Part shown: positions 22,643 through 64,000 of the stretch, in pieces
Numbering within the stretch: position 1 is the first letter of the stretch
How the letters are laid out: each line of letters opens with the position of its first letter
Assembly (NCBI RefSeq): GCF_029873635.1
Contig: NC_080422.1
Location: 18,718,049-18,782,048, forward strand
Origin: Malania oleifera
Taxonomy: Eukaryota > Streptophyta > Magnoliopsida > Santalales > Ximeniaceae
DNA length: 64,000 bases
Direction: 5' to 3'
Program-made: the position numbers and the translations under genes
Notes under the pieces: generated by a model
Database searches by the model: none
Told to the model about the DNA's origin: nothing
The model's input: the letters and a program-made list of their open reading frames with translations, nothing else

Positions 22643-22674
22643 AAGAACGAGGTACAATTAGCAACAAGGAAAAC

Positions 22675-23570: not shown

Positions 23571-23575
23571 GAACT

Positions 23576-25000: not shown

Positions 25001-25007
25001 GTTCTTA

Positions 25008-25877: not shown

Positions 25878-25879
25878 TT

Positions 25880-40361: not shown

Positions 40362-41385
40362 GTAACTTGGATTTGTTATGCATGTCTTTTCTTGTTGTGC
40401 ATGTCTTTTCTAGTTTTTAAATCCATGCTTTTGGAAATATAGCCTAGTTTGATGCTTCTGTGCTAGTGGAAGGGAATCTTATGCAATCAAGTTAGCATTA
40501 ACTACATGAACAGGTTCTTGTAGTTGTCATAGAAGTGGTTTTATCTTTGGTTCATGAAAACTTTAATATATATATTTTAAGGTGTGACACTATTGACTCA
40601 CAATGCTTTAGCTAGAGATGGTATATTGGTTTGTTTATACACAAGAAGCACAACATAACTATAATTGACATAAATAGCATGTTTTTATAATTTATTGACA
40701 ATATGATATTCTCTGTTAATGGTTACTTTGGTCATTTAGCATTATTAGTATGAACTAGTATTGTGTTGGTAAGCATGAGTTAGTAAGGGTAATATGGTCA
40801 TTGGGATGTATTTGATGTATACTGTAAATAATGGGAGAGACCTACCGCTGTGGTTAGGTCTTCCATTTTATCCAATTACTCAACATCGTATTATGCATGA
40901 TTTTGAGACCTAAACCCTAATTGCCACATCCACCATAAAAATTGAAGCCTAAAACCCTAATCTGTTGCATTTTTTACAATCATAGGAGAATCCTAGCATC
41001 ACTATAGGCTTGAAAAACAGCCAGCAGCTGTCGGAAGCCTCAACAATTGCTGGAAGTTTGTTGGTGATACTGGCAATTTAGAAACACAAAAACCTATGTA
41101 GATTTTGCAAAATCAGCTCTATAGACACCCACATGCATTTCTGGTCTAGTCTCCACTGAAATCCCATCCTAGAGCTCCACCTATCCGCTGATAAAGGCAC
41201 GCAAGGCCAATGCCACGCTTCGGTGTGAAGCTTATTTCAGGCATGTTTTGGCCTAAATTCATCCTGCAATTTTCGATTCCCTCTTTAAACATATTGAAGC
41301 TTTCCATGATGTTCTTTGTTCAAATAATGAATGTCTGATGCTTCTTGAAGCTGTTTCTCAATGTTTATTGAGTTCATTGGGGCCT
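40362..41385. other. Intronic sequence, mostly unassigned
   Basis: AT-rich and apparently unique to about 40760. 'TGTTGGTAAGCATGAGTTAG' near 40765 and a stretch with 'CCTAAACCCTAATTGCC' and 'CCTAAAACCCTAATCTG' (40910-40970) look like the start of a copia LTR/leader belonging to the relic downstream, but I cannot prove it. Confidence 0.4.
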
Positions 41386-41390
41386 GAAAA

Positions 41391-41735
41391 TGGTATTTGC
41401 TGTGTTTATGATTTGTTTATTGTGTGCTTGTGGTTTGCATCAATTATCAAAGGTATGTGTTGGGATGGAGTAAGTGAATCCCAAAAGCATGTTGTTCGTT
41501 ATGTAATTCTGATTTTCCGCTATACCGAGGTTGTGTGTATTGGGATGAGTCCCCAAATCCATGGTATTTGTTGTGTTTATGATTTGTTCATCATGTGCTT
41601 ATGGTTTGCATTGGTTATCAAAGGTTGTGTGTTGGGGTGGAGTTGGTGAATTCCAAAAGCATGTTATTCGTGATGTATTTCTGATTTGCTGCTATACCGA
41701 GGTTGTGTGTGTGTTGGGATGAGTTCCCAAATCCC
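41391..41735. repeat. 171-bp tandem duplication
   Basis: TGGTATTTGCTGTGTTTATG at 41391 recurs at 41562 (TGGTATTTGTTGTG...). Both copies end with 'CCGAGGTTGTGTGT...GGGATGAGT(C/T)CCCAAATCC'. Copies are about 90% similar by eye. Confidence 0.8.
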
Positions 41736-41739
41736 AAAG

Positions 41740-42795
41740 GTGTTTTCCTCGTCAGTCACTTTTTCGAGTGAACAACATACTAGAACTGTCTCAGAGGAGT
41801 ATTCTAGGTTCCTGCAATATTACTCATCCCAACAAGCATCTCATCACATTGCATATTTTGCTCAAAAAGGTAATTTTTATTGTCTATATGTCATCTGGTG
41901 TCTCTCCCACTAGTTCTTGGGTTATGGAGTCTACATCTACTGACTATATGACAGGTGTCACCTACTTCCTTTTTGCCTTATAGTATTCTAAAAATCTGCC
42001 TCAAGTTACCTTGTTGATGGGCCCTCTACCATCGTTAAGGGGATAGGAGTAGTAAATCCTACTCCTCCATATCTTTTTCTTTTGCTTTGTACATTCTTAA
42101 AGCCTCCTTCAATCTTACGGCTGTTAGTAAAATTACAATCATTAAATTGATTTGTGATCTTCTTTCCTTATTATCTAGGGCTTGAACATGAGGAAGATAA
42201 TTGGCATAGGATGTGAGGTTGGTGGGCTTACTATTTTGAGTAGCTCTCTCCTCCTATTACTTGTAGTGCCGTTGTAAGACTACATCAAATCCATTATTGC
42301 CTTGGTCATTTGTCATTGAAAAAGTTAAAATAGGTAGTTCCTACTTTGAGTTTTGAGTCTAATCTTAAGTGTGAATCTTTTCAATTAGGAAAGCCTCATC
42401 ATGTTCCCTTTGCTTCCCAAGTCAATAAAAAGGTAGTTAGCCCTTTCATGTTAGTCCATTATGATGTTTGGGGTCCTAGTTGTGCTACGTCAAAGTTAGG
42501 GCCGCGGTTCTTTGTTATATTTGTTGATGAATACCCCAGAATGACTTGGTTCTATTTAATGGAAGATCATTTTTGAGTTGTTTAATATCTTGTGTTTTTT
42601 GATCTCTAATAAGGACTCATTTTGATATGCTAGTTCGGATACTTTGTAGTGATAATGCAAAGGAGCATTTCAGTACTCAATTCACTACCTATCTAACTAA
42701 CTCTGGTATGAATCATCAGTCCTCGTGTCCACACTCCATAACAAAATGGAGTTGTAGAGTGAGAAAATAGAAATATTCTCGAAGTCACTCGAATC
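41740..42795 (+). pseudogene. Ty1-copia pol relic (protease, integrase start)
   Basis: Readable pieces: a serine/glutamine-rich gag end ('YSRFLQYYSSQQASHH', about 41804-41850), protease-like 'SSWVMESTSTDYMTG' (about 41908-41955; consensus DSG is replaced by EST), pre-integrase and integrase core: 'YHCLGHLSLKKLK', 'LGKPHHVPF', 'VHYDVWGPSC' (first catalytic Asp) and 'FVDEYPRMTWFY' (about 42510-42560), then 'PxQNGVVE' (about 42740). Similarity stops near 42795, before the RT. Multiple stops. Confidence 0.7.
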
Positions 42796-42801
42796 CTACT
42801 A

Positions 42802-42985
42802 TATTGTTAGGATTCTCAATTCAATTAGGATTTCTATTTAATGTTTTAGGATCCCCAAATCAAATAGGATTTCTATTTAATGTGTTAAGGTTCCCAAATT
42901 AGTTGGGATTTCTATTTAATGTTACGATTCCCAAATTAATTAGGATTTCTATTTAACGTGTTAGGATTCCCAAATCAAATATGAT
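42802..42985. repeat. ~45-bp tandem repeat
   Basis: Four to five copies of 'TTAGGATTCCCAAATxAAxT' plus 'AGGATTTCTATTTAATG', ending near 42985. It abuts the end of the copia relic. Confidence 0.8.
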
Positions 42986-43024
42986 TGAGTCCATTAAGGA
43001 CTTGGGTTGGGATTTTTTACATTC

Positions 43025-43161
43025 CTATTTAATGTGGCTCCAACAAGACTATTAGCAAGCATAATGTTAGCAGCACTATCACACCACCTACCCCTTGCTA
43101 TCCTCCTATGAAACATTGATTCAAAAGGAACTTAAGGAGCGAACAACAAAGGGTTTGTGCT
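43025..43161 (+). pseudogene. Older chromovirus relic, left part (gag end)
   Basis: Ends with 'ELKERTTKGLCWH' (about 43129-43166), the start of a C-x2-C zinc knuckle. The next residues 'CD-x-KWHRGHFCKK' are found at 53232 onward, across the 10-kb Tekay insertion, so the two parts are one interrupted gag. The left limit is approximate. Confidence 0.7.
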
Positions 43162-43166
43162 GGCAT

Positions 43167-45236
43167 TGTCACGCCCCGAACTTGGAAATGGGACCCAGGG
43201 ATGAATTTAAGTAGCCTAACCTGTTTCTGTATTAATTTAAACATACATGATACAATACAAATAAGAGAGTCCGACCCCGTGGGGTACATGGTTGCCCTAT
43301 GTACATACACATACCTATCCATACTCATCAGATATACAGCGGAATACGGTCTTTTATACATAAACGAGATCATACCGGAGTCTATACAAACTAGGACATA
43401 CATTCCCATAATTACAACATATACTTCAGGTGTCTACAAAACTATCCTGACAACCTGGATACCAAAACTCGTACCTAAAAGGTACTAGCAGTAGCTACGA
43501 CACCCCTTGCTTCCGGACGCTAGGATGCTACTTACCGCTACCTGAAGGACCTGAAAAACATTGTACGTACATTCGGGGTGAGACACCTCTCAGTAAGGAA
43601 GAAAACAGTTTATATTAGTGTGTGGCATACCAGTGTCATTTTACATACTTCATAACACTATACATACGATACAGTTCGAAACAATTCGTACAGTTTCATA
43701 CAATTCCATACAGTTCCAGTATTTTCAGAAAAACGTTCCAGTTCATATGATACCCAAATATACATACATACATACATACATACGGTCAGTGTCGTCACAC
43801 TAGTTTGCAACTACACAAGGTCACCTCGTCTCACAGCGATTACATTGCTACATACGCAACTACGCTGCGACGATCAAGGCCCAATAGTGATTACATTGCT
43901 CCATACGCAACTACACAAGGTCACCTAGTCTCACATCGATTACATTGTTACACACGCAACTACAATGCGACGACTCAGGCCTAATAGTGAATCCATTGCT
44001 TCATACGATGTAGTATATAACTTACACCACTTCGGTGACTAACCGGAATTAGACTGGTGATATTCACACCCTTGGATATAGAGCCGGACACTCTCGCCTA
44101 CGGTAGTTAACCGATCCATGGCACAGAGTACGGTAATTAGCCGCCACATAGCTGTTTCGGCGTACGGTAATTAGACGCCACTAGCCGATTTCACAAAACC
44201 TGGAATCATTTTGGAACTCACGTCCCTATACATTTTAGCGTACGGTAATTAATCGCCACATAGCTGTTTTACAAATACCTGGAATAAATACATACATCCA
44301 TACATATCACACTTATTTGGTTTACGGCAAATTATATCGTTTTCAAATTCAAGTATACAGTTTATACAAATATGGATTACGGTCACCTCAATAATACAGT
44401 TTAATCATAACTAACAGTTTTCCAAACAAAATAGAGATGATAACCGAAATCCCCAATTTTCCCGAAAACTGTAACCCAAAAATCCCGCATTTTTACCCGA
44501 TAGATTTCCCAAAATAAGTAGCCAAAATATACATATGATCGTAGCCTACAAGTTTACCGATCCTGATTTCGAAAATAAGCTGATATAAACAAAATCCCCT
44601 TACCTTAACTTGATTTCCAACTACGAATTCTATGGTTCCCAAAACTACGAACCGAGACTCCAAAACCTACAAACCACAGTACAATATAGGCTTACAATCC
44701 GTACATATACTAAATCATAAACAAAAACCAAACTTTACCTCGATTTTAGCCTGAAACCCAAAATTCTCCAAAACGAGATTCCGATCCTCTAGAAACGTAG
44801 AGGATCCTTCGCTGATCCTCGTAGTAATGTTGGATTTGTGATTCAGGCGACGAACGGCGAAGAAATCGGGAAGAGAGAGAGAGCTTCGAATTCTAAAGAG
44901 AGAGAGAGAGAGGATTTCCAAAACTTAGCAATGAAGCAACCCAAAAATATCTTTTATAAGCCTTTGACCCGAGTAGATTCGTCGATGAATCGGGATCCTC
45001 GTTGACGAATTCTTCACAAGATTCGTCGACGAATCGGTGGCCTCGTCGACGAACCAGATATTTCCATTTTTCCCGAACCTCTCGGCATTCACTCGTCGAC
45101 GAGCTTCTGAATTTCGTCGACGAATTCTTCACTATCTTCGTCGACGAATTATGGCCTCGTCTACGAAATCTGTACAATTCCATTTTTACCCCTCTTTTAC
45201 ATAATAAACCCATATACCACGGTTTGGGTTCTTACA
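43167..45236 (-). repeat. 3' LTR of the Tekay element
   Basis: 2070 bp, plus-strand TGTCACGCCCCG...GGGTTCTTACA. It contains the reversed hairpin motif (43575-43594), an (ATAC)n run (43761-43782), a ~105-bp duplicated segment (about 43805-44010), (GA)n runs near 44875-44912, a TATA box read on the minus strand as GGCTTATAAAAG (about 44952-44963), and eight palindromes (44979-45166). Confidence 0.93.
44979..45166 (-). promoter_or_regulatory. Array of eight TCGTCGACGA palindromes in LTR U3
   Basis: Sites start at 44979, 44999, 45023, 45043, 45093, 45114, 45138 and 45157 (steps 20, 24, 20, 50, 21, 24, 19). Five are exact TCGTCGACGA; the others are TCGTCGATGA, TCGTTGACGA and TCGTCTACGA. The TATA box lies 16-27 bp from the nearest site, downstream in the minus-strand sense. 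Confidence 0.7.
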
Positions 45237-45246
45237 ATCTCCCCTC
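45237..45246 (-). promoter_or_regulatory. Polypurine tract of the Tekay element
   Basis: GAGGGGAGAT on the minus strand, ending exactly where the 3' LTR starts (TGTAAGAACCC). Confidence 0.8.
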
Positions 45247-45324
45247 ATTACAAAATTTCGTCATCAAAATTTGCAATCTCTCTTTACAATCACATTCATA
45301 CTACTACATACATACATACTCTGA

Positions 45325-45605
45325 GGTGAAATGGTGACCATTTATACGCAGTCCCTCTACGATACATACATACACACTCTAGAGAATACGGCGGCCATTT
45401 ATACGCAGTCCGGTTACAATACATACATAGATATTCTAGAGAATATGGCAGCCATTTATACGCAGCCCCGTTACGATACATACATACACACTCTAGAGAA
45501 TATGGTTGCCATTTATACGCAGCCCTGTTACAATACATACATACATACTCTAGAGAATACGGCGGCCATTTTTACGCAGACCCGTTACGATACATACATA
45601 GATTC
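45325..45605. repeat. 57-bp minisatellite in the Tekay 3' untranslated region
   Basis: About five copies, marked by TCTAGAGAATAxGGC at 45379, 45435, 45492 and 45549. It lies between the chromodomain stop and the polypurine tract. As 57 is divisible by three, it gives long open frames on both strands that are not genes. Confidence 0.85.
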
Positions 45606-45767
45606 CCTCACTTATGGCGGAGGAATACCGTGGTTACACACATACACGGTCTCGGGAGCTCACAATACAACAGGGCTCTCCCAGAGACTAACCACCAAAT
45701 ACCATATGATAACAGAGGTTTACATACATACATACATACTCGTACCACCCTGCTATCCAAATACTAC

Positions 45768-46073
45768 TCAAAACAACTGCGGATACTTCCGGCGTATTTC
45801 CGTCTCTAGTTCCCAAGAAGCTTCCTCAACCTCGTGTTTCCGCCACAATACCTTTACTAATGGTATCTCTTTGGTACGAAGCTTCTGAACTTTACGGTCC
45901 AGAACTTGAATAGGTATTTCCTCATACGCTAAAGTATCCTCGATTTCCAACTCATCATAACTAATAACATGAGATGGGTCCAACACGTACCTTCTCAGTA
46001 TGGATACGTGAAATACATCGTGAACCTTCGAGAGTGCTAGGGGTAGTGCAACTCTATAGGCTATTAGACCCAC
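45768..46073 (-). pseudogene. Integrase C-terminus and chromodomain (Tekay)
   Basis: The open piece reads 'PLALSKVHDVFHVSILRRYV' (integrase C-terminal GPY-like end), then 'ILDRKVQKLRTKEIPLVKVLW' and 'EEASWELETEIRRKYPQLF', a chromodomain as in Del/Tekay elements. In chromoviruses this domain is thought to direct insertion by binding histone marks. It ends at a normal stop at its 45768 end. Confidence 0.85.
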
Positions 46074-47603
46074 TCGCTCAATGACCTAGAAGGGTCCGAT
46101 ATGCCTCGGGCTCAACTTGCCATTCCTTTCGAATCTCATCACTCCCTTCATCGGAGCGATTCTAAGGAATACCTTACCTCCCACCTCGAACTCCAACTCA
46201 CGGCGGTGAACATTCGCCTAACTCTTCTACCGACTCTGAGCCGATCTAATCCTCTCCCGGATCAAACCTACCTTCTCATACGCCTGCTGTACAAGTTCAG
46301 GTCCTAAAACCTGACGTTCACCGACTTCATCCCAATACAAAGGAGATCGACACCTCCAACCATAAAAAGCCTCAAACGGTGCCATCCCTATATTAGCTTG
46401 GAAGCTATTGTTATACGCAAACTTCACTAGTGGCAGAAACTGAATCCAACTACCATCGAAGTCCAATACACAAGCCTGTAATATATCTTCCAAGATCTGT
46501 ATCGTCCTCTTCGACTGTCCATCAGTCTGGGGGTGGAACGCTGTACTGAAGGTAAGCTTCGTCCCAAGTGCTTCCTGCAAGCTCTTTCAAAATCGAGAAG
46601 TAAATCTCGGATCTCGATCTGAAACAATGGACACCGGTACTCCGTGTAGTCTGACTATCTCCTGCACATATAGGTTCGCTAGCCTACTCAAAGGGTAGCT
46701 AACCTTCGTCGGTACAAAGTGAGCAGATTTCGCCAACTTGTCCACAATTACCCAAATAACATTCTACCCGTGAAGTGCTATCGGTAATCCGGTAACAAAG
46801 TTCATGGAAATGTGCTCCCATTTCCATACCAGAATAGGCAAAGGTTGCAACGGCCCTGTCGGCCTCTAATGTTCAGCTTTTACGTGCTAACACATCAGAC
46901 ACTGCTCCACAAACCGGGTAACATCCCTCTTCATACCACTTCACCAGAAGGACTCACGTAAATCACGATACATCTTCGTACTACCCGGATGTACCGTAAC
47001 AAAGTCCGTGGAAATGTGCTCCCATTTCCATACCGGAATAGGCAAAGGTTGCAACGGCCTTGTCGGCCTCTGATGTTTAGCTTTCACCTATTGACACGTC
47101 AAACACTGCTCCACAAACCGGGCAACATCCCTCTTCATACCACTCCACCAGAAAGACTCATGCAAATCACGATACATCTTCGTACTACCCGGATGTACCG
47201 TATACAGAGAACGATGCGCTTCCTCCAGAATCGTCCTTCTGATCTCATCGTCTTTTGGAACACACAGCTTGGTCCCAAACCTCAACACACCTTTGTCAGT
47301 GATGTTAAAATCCGCAGCCAAACCCTGCTGCACTTTCTCTACAATTTCAGCTAACTCTGCATCATTAGCCTGTGTGGCTTTAATACGCTCAAACAAGGTC
47401 GGTTGGACCATCAAGCTAGCAATGAAAGCCTGATGATCACCAGACACCAACTCTATGCCAAGGCTTTCCAGATCTCGTCTGACATGATGCTGAGCTAAAA
47501 CTGTAGTTATTGCTGCATGCTCTGACTTCTGACTCAATGCATCTGCTACCACATTGGCCTTTCCCGGGTGATAACTGATCGTACAATCGTAGTCCTTAAT
47601 CAA
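46074..47603 (-). pseudogene. Integrase (Tekay), with internal duplication
   Basis: The open piece 47088-47603 has 'YHPGKANVVADALSQK' (RNase H end) and the HHCC zinc domain 'EEAHRSLYTVHPGSTKMYRDL...WWSGMKRDVARFVEQCLTCQ'. A 204-bp tandem duplication repeats the end of this domain. The core continues with stops, then the piece 46227-46580 holds 'FSTAFHPQTDGQSKRTIQILED' with the catalytic region and 'WIQFLPLVKFAYNNSFQANI'. It would insert element cDNA. Confidence 0.82.
46792..47199. repeat. 204-bp in-frame tandem duplication in the integrase
   Basis: GTAACAAAGTTCATGGAAAT (46792) recurs at 46996 (GTAACAAAGTCCGTGGAAAT), and the following ~200 bp match with scattered changes. Length 204 = 68 codons. 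It duplicates the C-x2-C half of the HHCC zinc domain. Confidence 0.88.
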
Positions 47604-48892
47604 CTCTAGCCACCGCCTCTACCTCATATTCAGCTCATTCTGCGTGAAAAAGTACCTGAGGCTTTTGTGGTCAGTGAAAATCTCACACTGAACACCGTAC
47701 AGGTAGTGTCGCCAGATCTTCAAGGCATAAACAACTGCAGCTAACTCTAAGTCATGCGTAGGGTAATTTTTCTCATACTCCTTAAGTTGCTGAGAAGCAT
47801 AAGCTACCACCTTACCTTATTGCATAAGCACACATCCCAAGCCCTTCAGGGACGCGTCGCTATAGATCACAAAACTCCCATCTCCCGAAAGAATGGTCAA
47901 TACTGGAGCAGTAACCAGCCGGTGCTTCAACTCGAGAAAACACTGTTCGCAATCACTAGTCTAGTCAAATTTCACCCCCTTCTTAGTCAATCGTGTTAGA
48001 GGTCCAGACAATTTAGAGAAACCCTCCACGAACCGACGATAGTAACCCGTCAGTCCCAGAAAACTCCGAACCTCCTACACACTCTTAGGTCTAGTCCAGT
48101 CGACCACAACTTCAATCTTATTGGGATCAACGGAGATACCACCCCTAGACACCACATGGCCTAGGAACGCGACTTGATTCAACCAGAACTCACACTTCTT
48201 CAGCTTAACATACAACTTCTTCCCTTGCAGAGTCTGTAGTACCAACCTCAAATGGTACTCATGCTCTTCCGAACTCTTCGAATATACCAGAATGTCGTCA
48301 ATGAACACTACCACGAACCGATCTAGGTATTCATGGAAAACTCTGTTCATCAGATCTATGAACACCGTCGGCGCATTGGTCAACCCAAATGGCATAACCA
48401 AGAATATCTGGTTCGGAAAGTAGTCTTCGCTACATCTTCCGCTCTAACCCTCACCTGATGATATCCTGACCGTAAGTCGATCTTCGAAAAGACCTGCGTT
48501 TCCTGCAACTGGTCAAAAAGATAATCTATACGAGGCAAAGGGTAACGATTCTTCACCGTCACTTTGTTGATCTCACGGTAGTCAATGCACATATGCATCG
48601 ACCCGTCCTTCTTCTTCACAAATAATACTGGAGCTCCCCAGGGCGAAACACTCGGCCGAATAAAACCCTGGTCTAGTAATTCCTGCAACTGCTCCTTCAA
48701 CTCTCGAAGTTCTGCTGGAGTCATCCGGTACGAAACTTTAGAAATCGGTGCCTTGCCAGGCAACAACTCTATCGCAAACTCCACCTCACGATCCGGAGGT
48801 AAATCGGGTAAGTCATCTGGAAACACATCCGGAAACTTGTTGACCACCCGAATATCCTCGAGTCTCAACTCATCTCGTGGCAGTTCCTTCAC
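47604..48892 (-). pseudogene. Reverse transcriptase and RNase H (Tekay)
   Basis: From the 48892 end: '[20 protein letters not shown]', '[19 protein letters not shown]', '[20 protein letters not shown]', '[15 protein letters not shown]', then a frameshift at about 48380-48400 and '[20 protein letters not shown]', the intact active site '[12 protein letters not shown]' (about 48276-48311), '[11 protein letters not shown]'. RNase H follows with '[27 protein letters not shown]' pieces and '[13 protein letters not shown]' (47619-47810). A stop near 47617 follows 'NELNMR'. Confidence 0.88.
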
Positions 48893-49075
48893 GCAAGTTG
48901 GGTACCCCTAACATTGGTCGAAGAGTAGCCTTCTTGCCTGTAATGCTGATAGAATCTGTGGTACCAAACGCACACACGATCCTACGAACTCATACTCCTG
49001 CTTCCTAGGAGGTCTAAACACTACTACCTTCTTACGACAATCAATCACTGCATAGCTGGAGAACAACCAATCCAT

Positions 49076-49380
49076 TCATAGTATGACGTCGAAACCCGAC
49101 ATGTCGTATACTACAAGATTCGTCGGTAGTAGTCTCTCCTGAATCACAACTGGGCAGTTTCCTAACATCTTACTACAAGTCATTAAACTCCCAGTCGGCG
49201 TAGTCACAGACAACATTTCATTCATCACACAGGTTTTCGCCCCACACAATTTCACAAAACTAGCAGATATAAACGAATGGGTTGCCCTCGAATCAAATAA
49301 CACAGCAACTCTATTTGAAAGCAGTAACATAGTACCTGTTACCACGTTACCAGCGTGTTCTGCATTTGTTGGAGTAAGTG
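49076..49380 (-). pseudogene. Aspartic protease (Tekay)
   Basis: 'VAVLFDSRATHSFISASFVK' (about 49255-49315) is the protease start; the catalytic D-S-G has become D-S-R, which should abolish activity. 'VYDMSGFDVIL' near 49078 corresponds to the conserved 'M-x-x-F-D-V-I-L-G-M-D-W' block, cut by a stop. Confidence 0.82.
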
Positions 49381-50413
49381 AATATACTCTCGCCGGAGCC
49401 GTGGTTGCCTGGTAATTCCCCCGAGGCACCTGATTACTCCCACGGTTCTGGCTCTGTGCAGACATATCCTTCCTCGTTTCTTGGCAGCTCTTCGCCATGT
49501 GGCCCGACTTGCCACAGTTGTAGCAAACACCCCATAATGGCAGACATTCGCTATCGTGCCATTTATGGCACTTGGCGCACGGTGCGGAGGATGGATCCCC
49601 CTGAGAACTCGGCCGCTCGGTGTTCTGCCGATAACCAGAGCTGTAATTCTTCCTCTTTTTCCACTGATTCTACCGTGGACCACTCTAAGGACCAGAAGAT
49701 ACTGACCTCTTCCCCTGAACCTGCACTACCTCATCTCCTCGAAGGTCGGTCTCAACTATGGTGGCTTTATCCACCAGGACAGAGAACTCACGGATCTGCA
49801 GTAGCCCCACAAGACGGCGGATGTCTTTCCTTAGACCCCTCTCGAACCTTCGATCTTTCTCGTGCTCATTCGGAACCAAGTACGACGCAAATCTAGATAA
49901 CTCGATAAATCTAGCAACATACTTCTGTACCGTCAAAGTACCTTGTATCAGACCCGAAAACTCATTGGCCTTCGCATCTTGAGTGGAGACCGGAAAGTAT
50001 CTCTCGAAAAATACCTCCTTGAAACGGCCCCACATCATATCAGATGGACCCGCTCTCTGCCTCTCCAACAGGCTCACTGCCGTCCACCATCACCCTGCCT
50101 CCCCAGTAAGCTGGAAGGTAGCGTACAAAACCTTTTGCTTCTTTGTGCAGTGGAGGACTTCCAAAATCCTCTCGGTCTTCTCGACTCAGTCCTCCGCCTC
50201 TATCGGATTTGGTCTTCTTGTAAATGTCGGAGGGTGCATGCGTGTGAACCTCTCAATGGTACACCCTACATCAGTAGGAGAGCTCTCGCGTCTTTTAACA
50301 CTTCGCCCAATCTCTCGGATCACCTGTCTCGCCAAACCACGAGACACTGAAGGAGACTCATCGCTCGCCGTCTCCTCGGAGCCACTCTCCAAGTTATTGT
50401 CCTTAGGCTCCAT
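49381..50413 (-). pseudogene. Gag (Tekay)
   Basis: Probable start at the methionine 50413 ('MEPKDNNLESGSEETAS'), in the same frame as protease and early RT. The gag domain reads 'WGRFKEVFFERYFPVSTQDAKANEF' in two overlapping blocks (about 49960-50035), then 'YVARFIELSRFASYLVPNE', and a zinc knuckle C-Y-N-C-G-K-S-G-H-M-A-K-S-C (about 49487-49531). Stops near 50183, 50100 and 49682. Confidence 0.85.
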
Positions 50414-50723
50414 TCTGAAAATAGAATAGGAATCGGTTAGAATTCCTATATCGTACACAGTTAACACAATCATTGACCTAATCATGTCAACTATTACTCT
50501 CATAGGTCTAGGCTTGTCCCGACACACCGACACGAAAGTCATCAATGGTCTGCCCTGCCTTTACTGGAATCGTTATCCTAGGAAAGACACAGAATACCGC
50601 CGACAAATCCTGGTCTAGCAACAGAACAACCCTCAACCAATACTACCCATTTCCTACATCCTTTACTTTGGTATGTACACATCAATACTCCTAACCAGTT
50701 TACAAGACCTAACCACCTGGTTA

Positions 50724-50735
50724 GCTCTGATACCA
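50724..50735 (-). promoter_or_regulatory. Primer-binding site, initiator tRNA-Met (Tekay)
   Basis: TGGTATCAGAGC on the minus strand, three bases inside the 5' LTR end. Confidence 0.88.
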
Positions 50736-50738
50736 AGT

Positions 50739-53226: not shown

Positions 53227-54361
53227 GGCATTGTGATTAGAAGTGGCATAGGGGACACTTTTGTAAAAAAGGATGACTCTTGATGATTGAACTAGTGGAG
53301 GAGCTAGAAGAGGTTGAGGATGAATATGTTGATTAAGATAAACAAGGTATGAAATTTGATGATAATGATGAATCTATCACTTCTTCAGCTCATGCTCTAG
53401 CTAGGTATGCTAATCCTCAAACCATGAAAATTAATAGCTTCTTAAAACGGAAACTCGTCACTGTCTTAATTGATACATGTACCACTAATAATTTCATGGA
53501 TACTAAAATTGCTAAATGGCTAGCCTATCTTGTGGAGCAATGTGAGAAGTTTGATGTGAAGGTTGCAGATGGAAGCACCTTGAGATGTGAGAGCAAGTGT
53601 CCGCGAAGGTTAAACTTACTATGCAGAATCATGAGTTGTATGTTGATTTCTTTTTGCTGCCACTAGAAGACTATGAAGTGGTTTTGGGTATTGAATGGTT
53701 ATGAACTTTAGGTGATATAACTTGGGTTTTTTCTATACTGATTATGAAGTTTGCTGTAAATGGCCAGAGAGTGACTCTTAAAGGCTAGCTTTGTGGTAAT
53801 GTGACTACAATTTCAAGCCATCGTATGGAGAAGTTTCTTAAAAAGGAGTGACATGGCTGCCAAGTACAACTTGGAGCACGAGAGGGGTTACAACATCAAT
53901 TTGGCTAGGATGAAGGGGTAGAATCTCTCATTTTAGAATTTTTTAAATTGTTTGCAGAGCCCCAGGGATTCCCACCTCAGCGAACACATGATCACTGCAT
54001 TCCTCGATTGCCATGTAGTGTCCCTAGTAATGGCTGTCCTTATTGATATCCTTATTTTTGAAAATTAGAAACAGAAAAAAAAAAATGTTAGGATGCTGGC
54101 ATTATTCAACCAAGTGTTAGTCACTTAGTCCATATTCTTCTCTTGTCTTATTGGTGGAAAGGAGGATGGTTCTTGGCGGATATGTATTGATATTGAGCAC
54201 TCAAAAAGAGCACTATAAAGGATAAATATCTTATCTTTGTTGTGGATGAATTGGGAGGTGCCCAACAATTCACCAAACTCGACTTGAGAACGGCTATCAC
54301 CAGATTTGGGTGCATGAGGATGACATTTAGAAAACTGCATTTAGAACTCACGATGGCCATT
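53227..54361 (+). pseudogene. Older chromovirus relic, right part (gag end, protease, RT start)
   Basis: Continues the gag knuckle from 43166 ('KWHRGHFCKK'). The protease block 'KLVTVLIDTCTTNNFMDTKIAKWL' (about 53451-53520, catalytic D-T-C for D-T/S-G) is followed by 'EQCEKFDVKVADGSTLRCE' and, after a shift, 'FFLLPLEDYEVVLGIEWL' (53650-53703). RT begins near 54165 with 'KEDGSWRICID' and 'VDELGGAQQFTKLDLR' (54240-54290), and stops at about 54361. The style fits Reina-like chromoviruses. Heavily mutated. Confidence 0.75.
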
Positions 54362-54662
54362 ATGAGCCCTCGGGGAACCAAGGACGAGCAAACTCACCGC
54401 CAGAACCGCCGTGTGACCACTGCATTCTCGGCCATTGCTCATCGGTGTCTACTTTTTTTCAACTATAATCGAACTCTCTTTACCAAAGCCTCACTGCGCT
54501 CAGAGGGATACCTGCACCCTGCGCTAAACAAAGCAAATGTTCCGGGGCCTGCCAGCCCATCTGAATGGGGTTCAAAGGGGACTTGATAGCGTTTGGGCGG
54601 TATTGAGGGAGTTGATCGTACAATTAGAAATTCCTTTTTTCCTAAACTCATCTAGCGGGACG
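54362..54662. other. GC-richer insert of unknown origin
   Basis: About 300 bp between the chromovirus RT relic and the LINE. GC content is visibly above its neighbours. An open frame runs through it on plus (54242-54583, mostly within) and minus (54463-54651). It shows no retroelement motif. An organelle-derived or cellular-gene fragment is possible; I could not identify it. Confidence 0.4.
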
Positions 54663-55006
54663 AGTCAAAACATTCATAGGATCTAATTTGAATGGACACA
54701 TTGGAAAGGATAATATAAGCTATGAGAGGATACATGAAGGTCATGGATATGGAGATAAAAATAAGGCCAATGATACAATTTTAATTTTTTTTCATGTCTT
54801 ACAATTTTGTTATATTGAATACTTGCTTTATAAAAAGAGAAGAACACTTAATAACTTTCAAGAGTGAGCATAGTAAAAGTCAAATAGATTTTTTCTTAAC
54901 TAGGCACGGCGATCGTCTATCTTGTAAGAATTGTGATGTTATTTTTGGTGAAAGTTTGGCTACACAACATAGAATTCTAGTATTAGATGTACATACTAAA
55001 AAATGG
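54663..55006 (+). pseudogene. LINE (plant L1-type) endonuclease part, 5'-truncated
   Basis: Begins with 'KTFIGSNLNGHIGK' (about 54667-54710), corresponding to the 'G-D-L-N-G-H-V-G' block of the AP endonuclease domain, then 'GHGYGDKNKAND', 'FITRHGD'-like 'SQIDFFLTRHGDR' and 'LATQHRILVLDVHTKKW' (to 55006). Frame breaks at about 54780-54830. It continues at 55612 after a nested LINE copy. Confidence 0.8.
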
Positions 55007-55598
55007 GATGATATCTTTGATCTATTATGCAAGTGGAAGGGGAAATTGAAGAATATGTAATACATAGGATTAAAGCAGATTGGGTAAAATGGAGTGCGTT
55101 AGGTGGCGTGTTGTGTGATCGTAGAATATCCTTAAAATTAAAAGGAAAGTTTTATAAGATGATTACAATGCCGGTTATGCTTTATGATTTAGAATATTGG
55201 GCAACTAAGAAACAACATGTACAAAAAGTAAAAGTTGTTGAAATACAAATGTTAAGGTGGATGAGTTGTATAACATTAAAAATAAACTAAGAAACGAGCA
55301 TATATGCAATAATCTACGCGTAGAAATGGTCAAAAGACAAGATAAGGAAGAGGTGACTTAGATGGTTTGGGCATTTGAAATGCAGGCCTAGTAGAGCACT
55401 GTGAGGAGGAGTGAGTTTGATATTGTTTCTAACATGAAAAGGGGTGGGGGTAGGCCTAAAATATCTTGGAATGAGTTAGTAAGGAAGGATTTAATAATCC
55501 TTAATCTAGTATAGGAAAATGCTCTCGATTGAGTGAATTGGAGAAATTTAATTCATGTAACCGACCCCACTAGTGGCACTTAAGGCTTGTTGTTGTAT
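55007..55598 (+). mobile_element. Nested 5'-truncated LINE copy
   Basis: Starts inside the 3' part of the LINE frame ('VIHRIKADWVKW', 'YWATKKQHVQKVKVVEIQMLRW', then 'IRKRxLRWFGHLKCRP') and ends with 'CCCCACTAGTGGCACTTAAG' and a TTG-repeat tail. It is flanked by a near-perfect 12-bp target duplication: ACTAAAAAATGG (54995-55006) and GCTAAAAAAATGG (55599-55611). 5' truncation, TTG tail and long target copies are hallmarks of LINE insertion. Confidence 0.85.
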
Positions 55599-57770
55599 GC
55601 TAAAAAAATGGAAGAGAGAGTAACATAAATCAACACAGGAGGACTAGGTGGTGGAGCTTGAAGGGAGATAATATAATAAAATTCAAAGATTAAATTATTA
55701 AAGAGTGAATGGATAGTAAGGGATAAGGTAGATGCAAATACTATTTGAAATAAAATGGCCAACTCTATTGTGAGGACAACAAAAGAGATTTTAGCTGAGT
55801 CCAAAGAAAGATACTTAGGTAATAAAGAAAGTTGGTGGAGGGATCAAGAAGTCCAAAAAGTGTTAAGAAAAAAAGAAATGGGTATAGAATATGACAAAAT
55901 TGTAGAATTATAGAAAATATTTAAAAGTATAAAGAGACAAGAAAAAATGCAAAAAAGATTATTAGTGAAGCTAGACATAGTGTTTATGATACTTCATATA
56001 CTAGACTAGATACAAAAAAGGAGAAAGAGACATTTATAAACTTGCTAGAGGTAGAGAAAGAAAATGCAAAGATATAGGTAATGTAAAATGTATGAAGGAC
56101 GAGAATGATACTGTCTTAACTAGAGAAGAAGACATAAAGAGAGGTAGTGAGGATACTTTGATAAGTTGTTTAATGAAAAGTGAAAACCAAAATGAAAGAT
56201 TGAACTTGGAAGTGACAAATGAGGAAAAAGACTAAAAATAATAGATTTATTTGCAAAATTAGAGTCCTGCCAGTGAAGATGGAGTTAAAAAAGATGAAAA
56301 GTGAGAAATCCATAGGACTAGATAATATATTGATTGAAGTTTGGAAATGTTTAGTGGATAAAGGAAATATTTGGTTAACTAATCTTTTCAACATTATTAT
56401 AAAAACCAAGAAAATTGTGGAAGAATGGAGGGAAAAAATGATAATATACCTTCATAAAAAAACAAGGCGATATTCAAAATTGTAATAACTATGGTGGAAT
56501 TAAGATTATGAGTTATACGATGAAATTATAGGAAACGGGTAATTAGGCGAAGAATAAGATTAAAAATGAAGATTTCAAACAATCAATTTGGTTTTATGCT
56601 TGGGAAATCAACAATAGAAGCTATTTATCTTTTAGAAGATTAATGGAAAAGTTTAGGGAAAAGAAGAGGGATTTACATATGGTTTTTATTGACTTAGAGA
56701 AAGCATATGATAGAGTACCTATTGAAGTTCTTTGGTGGGTCTTAGAAAAGAAGGGGGGTTTATAGTAGATATACTGAGGTCATTGAGGATATGTATAATT
56801 GAATAGTGATTAACATTAGGACTGAAGGAGGGGTATCTAGGGAATTGCCAATCACAATAGGTGTAATCAAGGTTCTACTTTGAGTCCTTATCTTTTTTTT
56901 TTTTTTTTTTTTTTGATGAACTTACTAGGCATATCCAAAAAGAGATCCATTGACATATGTTTTTTGCAGATGATATTGTATTGATTGATGAAAGTAGGAG
57001 CGGAGTGGAATCTAAGTTAAAACTTTGTAGAATTGCATTAGAGTCCAAAAGTTTTAAGATAAGTAGGAATAAGACAAAATATATGAAATGTGATTTCAGT
57101 AATGTAAGGAGTAGCAGTGGACAGAAGATTAAACTTGATAATTAAGAAATTATTGACAATAATATATTTCAATATCTTGGATCTATTATGCAGGCGGAAA
57201 GGGAAAAGATGTAATACATAGAACTAAAGCAAGTTGGGTAAAATGGAGGAGTGCGTCAGGTGTGTTGTGTAATCGTATAGAATACCCTAAAAAATTAGAA
57301 GGAAAGTTTATAAGATGGATATAAGGTTGGCTATGCTTTATGCTTCCAAAATGTTGGGCAACTAAGAAACAACATGTAGAGAAAGTAAAAGTTGCCAAAA
57401 TAAGAATGCTAAGGTTGAGGAGTGGTATAACATTAAAAGATAAATTAAGGAACAAACATATACGCAATAATTTATGCATAGCACCTGTCGAAGACAAGAT
57501 AAGGGAGGGGCGACTTAGATGGTTTAGGCATTTGAAACGCAGGCCTAGTAAAACACTTTTGAGGAATATTTAGTAAATTATTATTTTTGGCATGAAAAAT
57601 GGCAAGGGTAGGCCTAAAATACTTGGAATGAGGTAGTGAGGAAGGATTTAATAGCCCTGAATCTAATAGAGGAAAATGCTCTCAATCAGGTAAATTGGAA
57701 GAAAAAAAATTCACGTAGCTGACCCCACCTAGTGGGACTTAAGGCTTCTTCTTCTTGTTGTTGTTAGTTA
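55599..57770 (+). pseudogene. LINE (plant L1-type) linker, reverse transcriptase and C-terminus
   Basis: Resumes after the nested copy with 'RTRWWSLKGDNIIKFK' (about 55640-55690), 'SWWRDQEVQKVLRKKEMG', RT blocks 'SEKSIGLDNILIEVWKCLV' (56298-56355), '[13 protein letters not shown]' (about 56678-56720) and 'MLFADDIVLIDESRSG' (about 56955-57005; active site A-D-D intact), then the C-terminal 'WATKKQHVEKVKVAKIRMLR' and 'IREGRLRWFRHLKRRPSK'. The 3' end is 'GACCCCACCTAGTGGGACTT' followed by a TTC/TTG tail (57746-57765). Many frame breaks. Confidence 0.85.
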
Positions 57771-57926
57771 GTTAATTTGATTTTTTGTAAAATTAGAATT
57801 TTTGCTTAATGTTATATTCAATTTTTTGGAATATTTAGTTCTACTGTGTCAATTGGCAGAGTTAGCTATGGAATGAAAAAACATAACATATTTAAAGACG
57901 AACAAATTTTTGATTTGGTTGAAGAG

Positions 57927-58008
<82 letters not shown>

Positions 58009-58582
58009 ATCTTCGGTTTCTATTCCTTGATCAAAAACCCTAAGTCTCAATGTCTTGTTTGCTTTTATTTTTCTCTTTTTGTATTTTATCTTAATAATTG
58101 GAAAAATTCTTGTTTTTTCTTATTATAGGGAAACACACCAGAAATTACATCAATTTTTGGTATCAGAAAGTTCAAGAAATCACATTAAGAAAAATAATGA
58201 CTAATTTAAAGATGAGTGGTAATTAGGTTTAATAGGATGGATGTACATTAGAGAAAAAAACTTCTCTGATTTGTTATGATGAACAACTCAAGAGAGGTTA
58301 CCTGTATTATTCAGAATTGGAGGCGAGGTCTCCGCGGACACTATTATCTGACTGATACATTTGACATTCCACTTGAAATTTAGTGAAAAATATTTGGAAA
58401 GTGGAAGAGGGAATTGAGATGCTTTTTGAAGAAAAAATCTTATGCAAACAAGTAAGCAATAATGTCTAAAAGATATATATATATATATTTAGGATAAAGG
58501 TGATGAGATAAAAATTTGAACAAATTTTTGGAGATTAGATAAAAAAAAAAATGTGAGCATATTAAACTTTGTAATGTTGTAA
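57771..58582. other. Intronic sequence with long (CT)n run
   Basis: Contains a (CT)n microsatellite at 57930-58008 (one CTTT interruption) and an (AT)n run at 58471-58489. No gene recognised. Confidence 0.6.
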
Positions 58583-58976
58583 TGTGGCTCGCCTCATAAA
58601 AAAAAAAAAAGGAAGGCGAAGAGTTGTCTGCCATTTAGTGGTCAGACTTGGTTGCTGTTTGGTGCAACCATCTCCACCCACTCCTTTGAAAAAAAAAGGA
58701 GAACTGATGGTGATATTTTTGGAGGAGATTTGGGCTGCGATGATTTCCTCTTCTCCTATAAAAGGATTACTCCTCTTCCATTGTAGAGTAAGAGGTAAGA
58801 CACAATAAGTGTGAGTGCACTGTGTGTGTGTTATAATCCTCCTCCTCCTTCACAATATACCCATATATATATATACTCCTCTCCCATAGACATAGGCTAA
58901 ATTGGCCGAACTTACGTATATCTTGTGTGTTTTTTGTGTATGTTATTTCATATTGGGTTGGATTCATATCCCAACA
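58583..58976 (+). repeat. 5' LTR of Tork element
   Basis: About 394 bp. Contains CTCCTATAAAAGGATTACTC (TATA box near 58757-58764) and ends 'TTCATATCCCAACA'. It matches 63168-63545 apart from short indels, including extra 'CACTGTGTGTGTGTTATAAT' sequence near 58818. Confidence 0.8.
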
Positions 58977-59159
58977 ATTGGTATTGGAGCTATAGGTTTT
59001 ATTTCTATGTATTAATACCGCCTTAATGACAGGTTTTATTGATGTGTATTGATACCGCCTTCATGGCTGGATCTATTCTTACTTTTTTGAGATTATACTG
59101 TAGCAACATTGTTCAGTGCAATTGTCCACATATAGTACTAGAGTATATTAAATGGAGGA

Positions 59160-60000
59160 AAGTACAAGCATTGTTAGTAGTTCCATGATCAGGCTTATAG
59201 AGACAAATTATTTGATCTGGAAGACAATGATGGAAGATTTGTTGTACTGTAAAGATCTGTTTGATCCTATTGAGTGCAAAGGGATCAATACAAAATGGCA
59301 AAAATGATTCTGATTGGAAGAAGCTCAACAGAAGGGCTGTCAATGTTATAAGATAGTGGGCTGAGCCGAGGGCAATCCGTGATCCAGCCAAAGAAACGGA
59401 TGCCTACAAACTTTGAATTTGGGAGAGATGTACAGCCAAAGAAATGGATGCCTACAAACTTTGGCAATATCTGGGAGAGATGTATGAGCCACAGAATGCC
59501 CAAAACAAAGCCTTCATGATAAGAAGGCTTGTGAATTTAAAATTATGTAATGGACAAAATGTTTCAGATCACTTGGATAAATTTAATGAAATTCTTGATA
59601 ACTTGACAAGCATGGAACTGACTATTGCAAATGAAATACAAGCATTGATTATGCTGGGTTCATTACCGGATAGTTGGGAGACACTGGTGGTAGCTCTCAG
59701 TAATTCAATACCAGACGGAAAGGTAACCTTGAGTACGGTGAAGGATAGCATCCGTAGAGAAGGCAAAAGAAGAGTTGAGTAAGGCTTGCCCACTCACTCT
59801 CAAGGACAAGCGATGGTTACTGAGAGGGGCAAAGTAGATTTTCCTAAGGAGACTAGAAGAACATAGGAAAGCCAGAAGCAAGTCCAGAGGCAGACCAAAA
59901 TCAAGAGTTAACTTCACCTACTATTATTGTAATAAATCTGGACATTTAAAGAAGAATTATTGGAAATGGAAGGAAAAACAAACCAGTGAAGACAAGAAAG
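59160..60000 (+). pseudogene. Tork gag, broken
   Basis: Starts near 59152 with 'MEESTSIVSSSMIRLIETNYL'-type sequence. The open piece 59444-59779 has 'YEPQNAQNKAFMIRRLVNLKL', 'LDKFNEILDNLTSMEL' and 'LGSLPDSWETLVVALSNSIPDG', the Tork gag core. A zinc knuckle Y-Y-C-N-K-S-G-H-L-K-K-N-Y lies near 59925-59965; its last cysteine is replaced by tyrosine. A 48-bp tandem duplication (CAGCCAAAGAAAxGGATGCC at 59385 and 59433) and stops break it. Confidence 0.8.
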
Positions 60001-61530
60001 AGGAGGACAAAAGTAGTGCACTTATGACTTCTGATGATCGCGAGACTTATGTGGTGTGTGAGGAAGGACATGTTAACCTCACTTGCCAAGACACAACATG
60101 GACGATTGATTCTGCAGCATCATTCCATGTAACAACATGAAGAGACTTCTCATCTTGCAAATGTGGTGATTATGGTTTTGTTAAGATGGGAAATGAAGCC
60201 AAATGCAAAGTTGTTGATAAAGAAGATGTGTTGATATAAACAAATGTTGGATGCAAGCTATACTACTGAAGGATGTTCGGCATGTCTGAGAGATTCGCCT
60301 TAACTTAATCTCCACAGGTCAACTTGATGACATGGGTTATGAAAACTATTTTAGTGATGAAATTTGGAAGCTTTAGAAAGGGAATTTGGTGGTGGCCAAT
60401 GGAAAGAAGGATGCTAGTTTATACTATACTCAAGCTAAGCAACTCTATGCAAGAGATGTGAATGCTACAAAATATAAAGTCACCACTGAGTCATGACACA
60501 ATAGACTTGGCCACATGAGCGAGAAGGGACTCCAGGTTCTTGCAGGGAAAAAGCTCCTTCCAAATTTCTCAAGTAAATCTTAAAAGAACTGTACTCATTG
60601 TTTAGCTAGTAAAAAACATAGAGTTGCATTTCAAAAGAACCCCCCCATTTAGGAGAAAGCATATTCTAGATCTGGTTCATATTGATGTGTGTTTTATGAA
60701 TGATAAAAGTATTGGTGGATCATTGTACTTTGTTACATTTATTGAGGACCACTCTAGAAAAGTATGGTCTTATTCTTTGAAGAGTAAAGACTAGGCGTTA
60801 GATATGTTCAAGAAGTTTCAGGCCAATGTTGAAAAACAAAGTGGAAGAAAGCTAAAACGTGTTCATTTAGACAATGGTGGTGAATACATTGGGCCATTTG
60901 AAGAGCATTGCAGAGTCCATGGTATCGGGCTTGAGAAGTCAGTTCCCAAGACTCCTCAACATAACGACATTGCAGAAAGAATGAATAGAACCATCTGCAA
61001 CAAGATTATTTGCATGCTCTCTCATTCAAGATTGCCAAAATCCTCTTGGGATGAGGCGTTAATGAAAACAGTTAATCTCATCAACCTTTCTCCTTTAGTT
61101 CCTTTAGGAGGTGACATTCGTGAAAGGATTTGGACTGGGAGAGACGATCCTATTAATTGGTTGTAAAGCTTTTGTCCATGTTCCTTGGGATGAAATGACC
61201 AAATTTGATGCAAAGAAAAAAGAGCGCATCTTCATCCGTTATGGTATTGATGAGTTCGGCTACAGAATATGGGATCCAAAGAACAGGAAAGTCATCCGAA
61301 GCAGAGATGTAGTATTCTTTGAAGATCAAACTATTGTCGATTATGAGAAGGTCAATAAGCTAAAGCATGTCCTTAGGAATCCAATTGAGTTGATTCTAAA
61401 TTCACCACCACAGCCACAAGAAAAGCATGACGATAATAGGGAAGTTGATGAGAGTGATGAACCAATAGCTAAAGGTGATCAAGAAGCTCTATCTTGCAGA
61501 ACCCTAGATAAGAAGATCTGCTAGGGAGCG
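60001..61530 (+). pseudogene. Tork protease and integrase, broken
   Basis: Protease start 'TWTIDSAASFHVTT' (about 60098-60140; D-S-A for D-S-G). Pre-integrase 'LGHMSEKGLQVL' near 60510-60545. The integrase core has 'DLVHIDVC' (first Asp), 'KRVHLDNGGEYIG' (second Asp, about 60858-60895) and 'TPQHNDIAERMNRTI' (Glu, about 60952-60995). The next open piece 61111-61524 gives 'GCKAFVHVPWDEMTKFDAKKKERIFI' in two blocks and 'WDPKNRKVIRSRDVVFFED'. Stops and shifts throughout. Confidence 0.8.
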
Positions 61531-63052
61531 TCAACCTTTTAGAAGATACCCACCAGATGAGTATGTGTTGCTAATTGATGGGGGAATACCAAAATGTTTT
61601 GAGGATGTCATGTCACATGAGCACAAGAATGAGTGGCTAAAGGCCATGCAAGAAGAGATGAAATCCTTACATGAGAACCACACTTATGATTTGGCAGAAT
61701 TATCAAAGGGAATGAAACCACTCAACAACAAATGGGTGTTTAGATTGAAAAATGAAGATGGAAACTCACAAACAAGGTACAAGGCGCGACTATTTGTGAA
61801 AAGTTTTGGTCAAAGAAAAGGTATTGGCTTTGAAGAGATTTTTTCGCCCATGGTGAAGATGTTATCTATTCGAGTTGTTCTCAGATTGGCTGCTAGCTTG
61901 AACTTGTAGATTGAGCAACTTGATGTAAAAACTGCATTTCTCCATGGTAATTTCAAAGAATAAATTTATGTGAAACAACATGAAGGATTCGAGATCAAAG
62001 GCAAAGAACAGGTGGTGTGCAAATTGCGAAAGAGTTTGTATGGCCTCAAGCAGGCACCGAGGCAGCGGTACAAGAAGTTTGATTCCTTCATGTTGGAGCA
62101 CAGGTATAACAGGACCACATCTGACCATTGTGTTTTTATTAAGAGATTTTCTAGTAATGATTTCATTATTCTCATGCTTTATGTGGATGATATGCTAATA
62201 GTTGGTTGTGATACTGAGAAGATAGAAAAGTTGAAGAAAGAACTAAGCAAATCCTTTGCAATGAAGGATTTAGGTCCAACAAAACAAATTCTTGGAATAA
62301 AGATCTTTCGAGATGGGAAAAATAGAAAGTTGTGGTTGTCTCAAGAAAAGTATATTGAGAAGGTGTTGGAAAGATTTAACATGAACAAGGCAAAACCAGT
62401 CAGTTGTCCACTTGCAGGACACTTCAAGCTTACTTCCAAGCAATATCCTACAAGTGAAAATGACAGAAGAAATGAAGAAAGTGCCTTACTCTTCAGCCGT
62501 GGGTAGCTTGATGTACACCATGGTATGCACAAGACTTGATATTGCTCATGCAGTTGGAATAGTCAGTCGATTCCTTTCTAATCCTTGAAAAGAACATTGG
62601 GAAGCCATCAAGTGAATTCTTAGGTATCTCAAAGGTACTTCTCATTTATGTTTATGTTTTGGTCATGACAAACCTATGTTGGAAGGTTACACAGATGCAG
62701 ATATGGCTGGTGACGTTGACTCCAGAAAGTCTACTTCGAGATACCTGATGACATTTTCAGGGGGAGCAGTGTCATGGCAATCAAAGTTACAAAAATGTGT
62801 TGCATTGTCCACTACTGAGGTAGAGTACATCGCCATCATTGAAGCAAGCAAAGAGCTTCTATGGATGAAAAAGTTCCTGGAGGAACTTGGCCTCAAGCAA
62901 TTGAAGTATGTTCTCTACTGTGATAGTCAAAGTGTCATTCATCTTAGCAAGAATCCTAGTTTTCATTCAAAATCAAAGCATATTGATGTTCAATATCATT
63001 GGATTCGAGAAGTGTTAGAGTCAAAGCAGTTAAAGTATAGAGAAGATTCATA
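61531..63052 (+). pseudogene. Tork reverse transcriptase and RNase H, broken
   Basis: RT blocks: 'HKNEWLKAMQEEMKSLHENH', 'NNKWVFRLKNEDG', 'GFEEIFSPMVKMLSIRVVL', 'QLDVKTAFLHGNF' (about 61916-61955), 'SLYGLKQAPRQRYKKFDSFM', and active site 'MLYVDDMLIVGCD' (about 62176-62213), intact. RNase H: 'GYTDADMAGDVDSRKSTSRYL' (62685-62745), 'ALSTTEVEYIA' and 'SKHIDVQYHWIREVLE'. Stops at about 61908, 61961, 62504 and 62586 break the frame. Second-youngest-looking pol in the window by readability. Confidence 0.83.
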
Positions 63053-63167
63053 GTGATGACAATGCATCAGACATGATGACTAAAACAATGTCCAAATCAA
63101 AGCTTGAAGCTTGTAGAACCACGACAGGTTTGTTGGAACTCTCCGCATGAGTTGGGTGGGGGAGATT

Positions 63168-63545
63168 TGTTGGGCCCGCCTCATAAAAAAACAAAAAAAG
63201 AAAAAGAGGCAATGACTTGGTTGCCATTTGATAGTCAGACTTGGCTGCTGTTCGGTGCAACCATCTCCACCCACTCCTTTGAAAAAAAGGAGGAGAACTG
63301 ATGGTGATATTTTTGGAGGCGATTTGGGCTGCGATGATCTCTTCCTCGTCTCCTATAAAATGATTACTCCTCTTCCATTTTAGAGTGAAGGGTAAGACAC
63401 AACAAGTGTGAGTGTATACCCATATATATATATATAGTGAAGTTACTCCTCTCCCGTGGACGTAGGCTAAATTCGCCGAACCACGTAAATATTGTGTGTT
63501 TTTTGTGTATGTTATTTGATCTTGGGCGGGATTCGTATCCCAATA
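63168..63545 (+). repeat. 3' LTR of Tork element
   Basis: About 378 bp, TGTTGGGCCCGCC...GTATCCCAATA, directly after the polypurine tract. TATA box CCTATAAAAT near 63352. Confidence 0.82.
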
Positions 63546-63980
63546 GTGCATTTGGGCTGAATTAGTAGAATTGATTAGAGTACACTTCTTTTATTCCCTT
63601 GCCTACCTTCTTCCTAGTTCCTAGAGATGATATCGTTATTTTAATTTTCCAACTAGAAAAAATGATTTAGTGTGGTTGAAGACTTCAAAGATGGTTGTAG
63701 CCAAAGATTGTAGCTAAACTGCATTTGCTGAAATAAATGACTAGTGTATGCTGCACTTCCTCTCCCTCTCTCTCTCTCCATGCTTCCATGCCTGGTGCCT
63801 GCATGGATGGGGCTCAGCATTCAATGACATAAACTGTATTGGCATTTTATTGTTTTTCCAATTGAAATGTCTCGTATGAATTCCAACATACATACTTGTT
63901 ATGAATGTACTGAACAAATGAATATATGAAACTTCTGTCAGTCTATTGGATCAATACTTTTCTTATTTTATTCATTTTAG
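63546..63980. other. 3' end of intron 2
   Basis: Apparently unique AT-rich sequence with a CT run (63757-63778), ending in a good plant acceptor (T-rich, TTCATTTTAG at 63971-63980). No other feature seen. Confidence 0.6.
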
Positions 63981-64000
63981 GAAGCAATTTGTGGAAAATG
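63981..64000 (+). CDS. Second coding exon (start only) of ASI1/IBM2-like protein
   Basis: GAAGCAATTTGTGGAAAATG follows the acceptor AG and in phase 0 encodes E-A-I-C-G-K plus the first two bases of the next codon. Joined to '...NPL' of the upstream exon it matches the 'NPLEAI.GKC' continuation I know from plant ASI1/IBM2-type BAH proteins. The window ends here. Confidence 0.82.

Follow-up and report, generated by a model that had tools for sequence, protein, structure and literature searches.

A retrotransposon-filled 23.6-kb intron within the BAH domain of a likely ASI1/IBM2/SG1-type gene of Malania oleifera

Results and discussion

A 64,000-nucleotide stretch of the genome of Malania oleifera (contig NC_080422.1, positions 18,718,049 to 18,782,048, forward strand; hereafter the window, to whose first letter all coordinates refer) contains an exon for the first part of a BAH domain, whose coding sequence resumes only after an intron of 23,619 bp that is filled with retrotransposons. 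We consider it probable that this exon is the first coding part of a working gene of the ASI1/IBM2/SG1 type, whose BAH domain is split by an intron grown through retrotransposon insertion and whose intronic polyadenylation sites are plausibly masked. In Arabidopsis the complex of ASI1, AIPP1 and EDM2 binds to heterochromatin in introns and steers polyadenylation to distal sites (PMC7472560); the gene described here might belong to the machinery that deals with introns of this very kind. The parts of the gene that lie within the window are:

40008..40361, plus strand: coding exon, residues 1-118 counted from the ATG at 40008, with the first part of the BAH domain and a phase-0 donor at its end (open reading frame, Pfam, PDB and junction)
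40362..63980, plus strand: intron of 23,619 bp, GT...AG (sequence, alignment of the joined protein, rarity of the acceptor pattern)
40362..40442, plus strand: read-through of the exon into the intron, up to an in-frame stop at 40440-40442 (sequence)
63981..64000, plus strand: start of the next exon, EAICGK, stopped by the window end (sequence, alignment, rarity of the acceptor pattern)

The 118 codons of the exon are open throughout, for which the chance is about 7e-4 under an order-2 model at one given place and frame, and the encoded protein matches the Pfam BAH profile with E 2.3e-8, ending in NLNPL at the phase-0 donor CTG/GTAACT. A PDB search with this protein, covering 177,635 distinct sequences and reporting 12 at E <= 10, returned as best matches 7xpj and its near-twin 7xpk at about 101 bits; the next chain is BAHCC1 (6vil) at 25.5 bits, and all ten distinct sequences other than 7xpj and 7xpk, BAHCC1 among them, are weak. 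The exon thus falls in with 7xpj. In the same search 7cce, which we take to be AIPP3, scores 16.2 bits. Self-BLAST of the window (E <= 1e-10, matches of more than 80 bases) gave no match over the exon.

On the far side of the intron the acceptor TTTTAG/GAAGC has its AG at 63979-63980 and is followed by GAAGCAATTTGTGGAAAA, encoding EAICGK; these are the 20 bases of the downstream exon that lie within the window. Joining the two exons prolongs the alignment to 7xpj by six gapless columns, five of them identical (EAICGK against EAIGGK), and lifts the score by 9.5 bits, from 101 to 110.5. One could suppose that no splice takes place here and that the acceptor and EAICGK are a chance occurrence, given how little of the downstream exon is visible and given that a pyrimidine tract as good by a simple count precedes 29 further intronic YAG sites (30 including this one); the support for the junction hence comes from the continuation of the protein and not from the splice site itself. 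However, the pattern AG-E-A-I-x-G-K is expected only 3.3e-4 times in the intron under a first-order Markov model and was found once in a search of both strands of the window, at 63979, and the gain in score falls at the exact continuation of the alignment, making a chance junction extremely improbable. The initial annotation had proposed precisely this connection between the BAH exon and EAICGK, and the alignment bears it out. A transcript ending within the intron would read on to the early stop at 40440-40442 and encode 144 aa with a truncated BAH domain.

The intron holds the following elements, found in part by a profile scan that covered 28 chosen chunk-frames rather than six frames throughout, so that relics may be missed:

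42268..42393, plus strand: copia relic, gag_pre-integrs (E 4e-6; 27.0 bits, below the Pfam cut-off of 28.4)
43162..53231, minus strand: Ty3 chromovirus with a 5-bp target duplication GGCAT at 43162-43166 and 53227-53231 (self-BLAST, Pfam domains, comparison of long terminal repeats)
53591..53707, plus strand: Ty3-type protease relic, RVP_2 (Pfam)
55011..57753, plus strand: relics resembling long interspersed nuclear elements (LINEs); 55011-55594 and 57172-57753 are 80% alike, and pieces of RVT_1 at about 56634-57181 lie below the Pfam cut-off
58575..63545, plus strand: copia element, sense to the gene, with gag, integrase core and RVT_2 spread over several frames (Pfam domains, self-BLAST, comparison of long terminal repeats)

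The chromovirus and the copia element together make up 15,041 of the 23,619 bp of the intron (64%). The former (43167-53226, antisense to the gene) is bounded by long terminal repeats (LTRs) at 43167-45236 and 50739-53226, and its minus strand encodes gag, a CCHC zinc knuckle, a protease, a reverse transcriptase in two frames, RNase H, H2C2 and SH3_Tf2-1, together with a weak chromodomain (E 0.0097, below the cut-off). The Ty3 order of domains with a chromodomain, the LTRs and the target duplication characterize it as a Ty3 chromovirus, albeit with the integrase core absent from the domain listing. Its LTRs are 95.2% identical over 2,046 aligned sites (Kimura two-parameter distance, K2P, 0.050; 468 gap columns set aside). 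Within the element there are also a tandem duplication of 204 bp (91%) at 46792-47202, overlapping the H2C2 domain, and repeated units of 57 bp at 45331-45615. The copia element displays gag, integrase and then RVT_2 between its LTRs, which are 89.7% identical over 350 aligned sites (K2P 0.112, 60 gap columns set aside) and 79.75% identical in the gapped BLAST alignment; no target duplication was identified at the element ends. Thus Pfam domains, LTRs and self-BLAST agree with the earlier description of an intron filled with a chromovirus, a copia element, LINE-like and older relics, where the clade names Tekay for the chromovirus and Tork for the copia element are solely labels of that description, and the label LINE for the relics at 55011-57753 is presumptive on our part.

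At LTR substitution rates of 7e-9 and 1.3e-8 per site per year the chromovirus would have inserted about 1.9-3.6 and the copia element about 4.3-8 million years ago; at 1.51e-9, the rate used for Chloranthus, the corresponding figures are about 17 and 37 million years. A large intron has thus probably been carried for millions of years with no break in the frame of the exon or the splice sites, which points to a gene in use and makes a working gene the most likely state. The mechanism that we envisage is one in which repeated insertion of retrotransposons enlarged the intron of an ASI1-type gene to 23.6 kb, the polymerase would read across the silenced transposons, and the intron would then be spliced out, with its poly(A) sites masked by the ASI1-AIPP1-EDM2 pathway as in other genes of the kind. 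Of this picture the exon, the junction, the intron and the transposons are observed, and silencing, transcription, masking and the ASI1 identity are inferred. Such growth can be ordinary in a large genome: where 2,184 orthologs were compared, 876 Chloranthus genes were longer than 20 kb, LTR elements being among the main contributors to long introns (PMC8626473). As in the long introns of Chloranthus and magnoliids, LTR retrotransposons have here swollen the intron of a gene, and the present case is set apart from those ordinary genes only by the likely identity of its product.

Conversely, the gene could be a dying or silent copy that was inactivated by the insertions, with another intact gene doing the work. 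The sheer size of the intron would be in line with this, as would the lack of any cellular-gene domain in the upstream pieces covered by a partial scan, namely seven of the nine upstream open reading frames of at least 150 aa plus one 3.6-kb stretch. The same may be said of codon 60 (40185-40187), which encodes Asp, in contrast to Tyr in 7xpj, BAHCC1 and TNRC18 and Ile in RSC2; this could mark the loss of a methyl-lysine cage residue or possibly a change particular to the lineage. Yet frame, donor and acceptor are all whole despite an LTR divergence of 0.11 in the copia element, and neutral decay over such a time would probably have left some damage. Hence we regard a dying copy as very unlikely.

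BAH domains that read H3K27me3 are characterized by a His and an Asp in addition to an aromatic cage (PMC7718874); in AIPP3 the cage is formed by residues 149, 170 and 172 (Tyr-Trp-Tyr), and the His and Asp that read H3P30 lie 28 and 30 residues after the cage Trp (PMC7718874). When placed by this spacing, as opposed to a residue-by-residue alignment with AIPP3, the cage positions of the Malania protein would be D60, W81 and F83, and neither His nor Asp occurs in residues 96-118, the region that spans their place by spacing from W81. Further, SG1 has been called unique in Arabidopsis (PMC3880313) and IBM2 is single-copy in rice (PMC7145194). The lack of the reader His and Asp, together with the uniqueness of SG1 and the single copy of IBM2, fits ASI1, and the gene is likely to be of the ASI1/IBM2/SG1 type and to have a BAH domain of the same subfamily as Arabidopsis At5g11470 and rice OsIBM2 (Os01g0610300). 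The accessible text on these known members mentions no transposon-filled intron, a statement that covers the text and not the gene-structure figures.

An alternative is that the exon belongs to a different plant subfamily of BAH proteins, one that is related to ASI1 yet lacks the RRM and any role in intronic heterochromatin. The BAH domain is seen only in part, the best match 7xpj is named merely 'BAH domain-containing protein', with neither gene nor organism given, and the gene runs off the window at 64000 with the RRM region beyond its end. Nevertheless, the absence of the reader His and Asp, the low score of the presumed AIPP3 chain, the uniqueness of SG1 in Arabidopsis and the single copy of IBM2 in rice speak against another subfamily, which we judge quite improbable. 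The orthology with ASI1/IBM2/SG1 considered in the initial annotation is made likely by the strong match to 7xpj and 7xpk, the weak matches to the other chains and the missing reader residues, but is still unproven.

Several observations weigh against our preferred interpretation of a working, masked ASI1-type gene. 1) Asp at position 60 in place of Tyr could mark decay or divergence. 2) The RRM expected of ASI1 lies outside the visible part of the gene and the comparison covered PDB chains, such that the identity is likely but unproven. 3) In the chromovirus LTRs alone C/T differences are not significantly commoner at CG than at CHH sites (25/210 against 41/518, p 0.12). 4) Taking CG and CHG together, the excess of C/T differences is likewise not significant (p 0.051). 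5) The chromovirus LTRs show no depletion of CpG, with observed/expected ratios of 1.27 and 1.09. When both LTR pairs are pooled, C/T differences are commoner at CG than at CHH sites (31/225 against 55/635, p 0.04), as expected after past methylation, and in the copia LTRs alone the figures are 6/15 and 14/117 (p 0.01). The CpG ratio is 0.30 in the 5' part of the intron, 0.41 in 53232-58580, 0.35 in the copia element and 0.27 in the 1 kb before the exon. We rejected CpG depletion as proof of methylation, since the younger LTRs are not depleted and the 1 kb before the exon is, age and composition being confounding factors. Taken together, the sequence retains weak signs of past methylation.

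Masking of intronic poly(A) sites in this gene would have precedents. IBM2 and EDM2 stop ectopic 3' end processing in introns of more than 10 kb that carry heterochromatic T-DNA inserts (PMC5364540), and OsIBM2 acts in a like manner on heterochromatic introns in rice (PMC7145194). IBM1, RPP7 and other genes read with the help of ASI1, AIPP1 and EDM2 resemble the present one in that repeats or transposons fill an intron within a coding gene. Whereas IBM1 and RPP7 depend on the complex or its members, dependence is only proposed here, and it would mean that a regulator is encoded by one of the genes it regulates.

A further proposal is that the product of the gene, with EDM2 and AIPP1, binds the intron of the gene that encodes it, and that the full-length mRNA of this gene requires it. 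The feedback would be positive: were the product or the methylation of the intron lost, the mRNA would give way to short forms that end in the intron. We hold this to be unlikely, though attractive and cheap to test. In its favour, the intron is of great length and holds a fairly young element in antisense orientation besides the sense copia element; it contains 14 sense AATAAA signals, four of them in the chromovirus LTRs; its retention leads to the early stop noted above; IBM1, RPP7 and the T-DNA-carrying introns depend on the complex or its members; and FPA regulates itself via an intronic poly(A) site, but with the opposite sign. Against this, sense AATAAA is no commoner than antisense (14 against 16) and occurs in neither copia LTR, for which reason we discarded the poly(A) signal of the copia LTR as a candidate proximal site. 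In addition, 454 genes were commonly affected in the OsIBM2 lines of rice, 93 of them with heterochromatic introns, as against 4,227 rice genes that have such introns (PMC7145194); visible dependence on OsIBM2 was therefore a rare consequence of a heterochromatic intron alone in those lines, which according to the authors are partial loss-of-function mutants (PMC7145194). Finally, the literature surveyed, outside of which fall most subscription papers and the original papers on ASI1, IBM2 and the complex, yielded no instance of an ASI1 gene under the control of a heterochromatic intron of its own.

The nearest parallel is FPA, which autoregulates through polyadenylation in its intron 1 (PMC8116057) and is likewise an RNA-processing factor that controls its own mRNA by a choice between intronic and distal ends. 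However, FPA promotes its own premature end, whereas in the loop considered here the sign would be positive and the chromatin of transposons would set the level. IBM1, for its part, is an epigenetic regulator known to be under the control of its own intron (PMC11265718). That the gene for a factor of read-through has a transposon-filled intron inside its own chromatin-binding domain, and that the product and silenced intronic elements are both needed for full-length mRNA, forming a positive and possibly bistable loop in which transposon load sets intron masking across the genome, is in our estimate rather doubtful.

Other features of the window

Upstream of the gene, 20612-21839 shares 70-75% identity with the LTRs of the chromovirus (44018-45236 and 52021-52923), suggesting a related element or a lone LTR. 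Copia pieces with gag_pre-integrs, SH3 and RVT_2 lie at 33055-35117 (plus strand). Pieces resembling an endogenous caulimovirid occupy 22636-27727 (plus strand) and include a reverse transcriptase with RNase H (about 26662-27727, plus strand) and a CCHC frame (25188-25877, plus strand) with a zinc knuckle below the Pfam cut-off. We take the CCHC frame to be coat-protein-like, and a further frame, lacking a Pfam match, to be presumably movement-protein-like. The window also contains a tandem array at 16981-18166 (period of about 95 bp, self-matches 69-76% alike) and a tandem duplication of 355 bp at 3735-4445 (99.7%), with a partial further copy (92%) at 11470-11756.

Implications

A transposon-swollen intron in what is likely to be an ASI1-type gene is a modest but cleanly testable curiosity. 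If the self-dependent loop were true, a protector of transposon-laden genes would itself be regulated by the transposons in its own gene. This would parallel the control of IBM1 by a heterochromatic intron, save that the gene would depend directly on its own product. A loop of this type could fix expression in a high or a low state and vary among species with their insertion history, and it could render an important gene sensitive to the loss of methylation. In rice, no homozygous seed was obtained for osibm2 deletions in the BAH domain (PMC7145194). Even if the loop were false, the locus would still test how much growth of an intron by transposons a presumably essential gene can bear.

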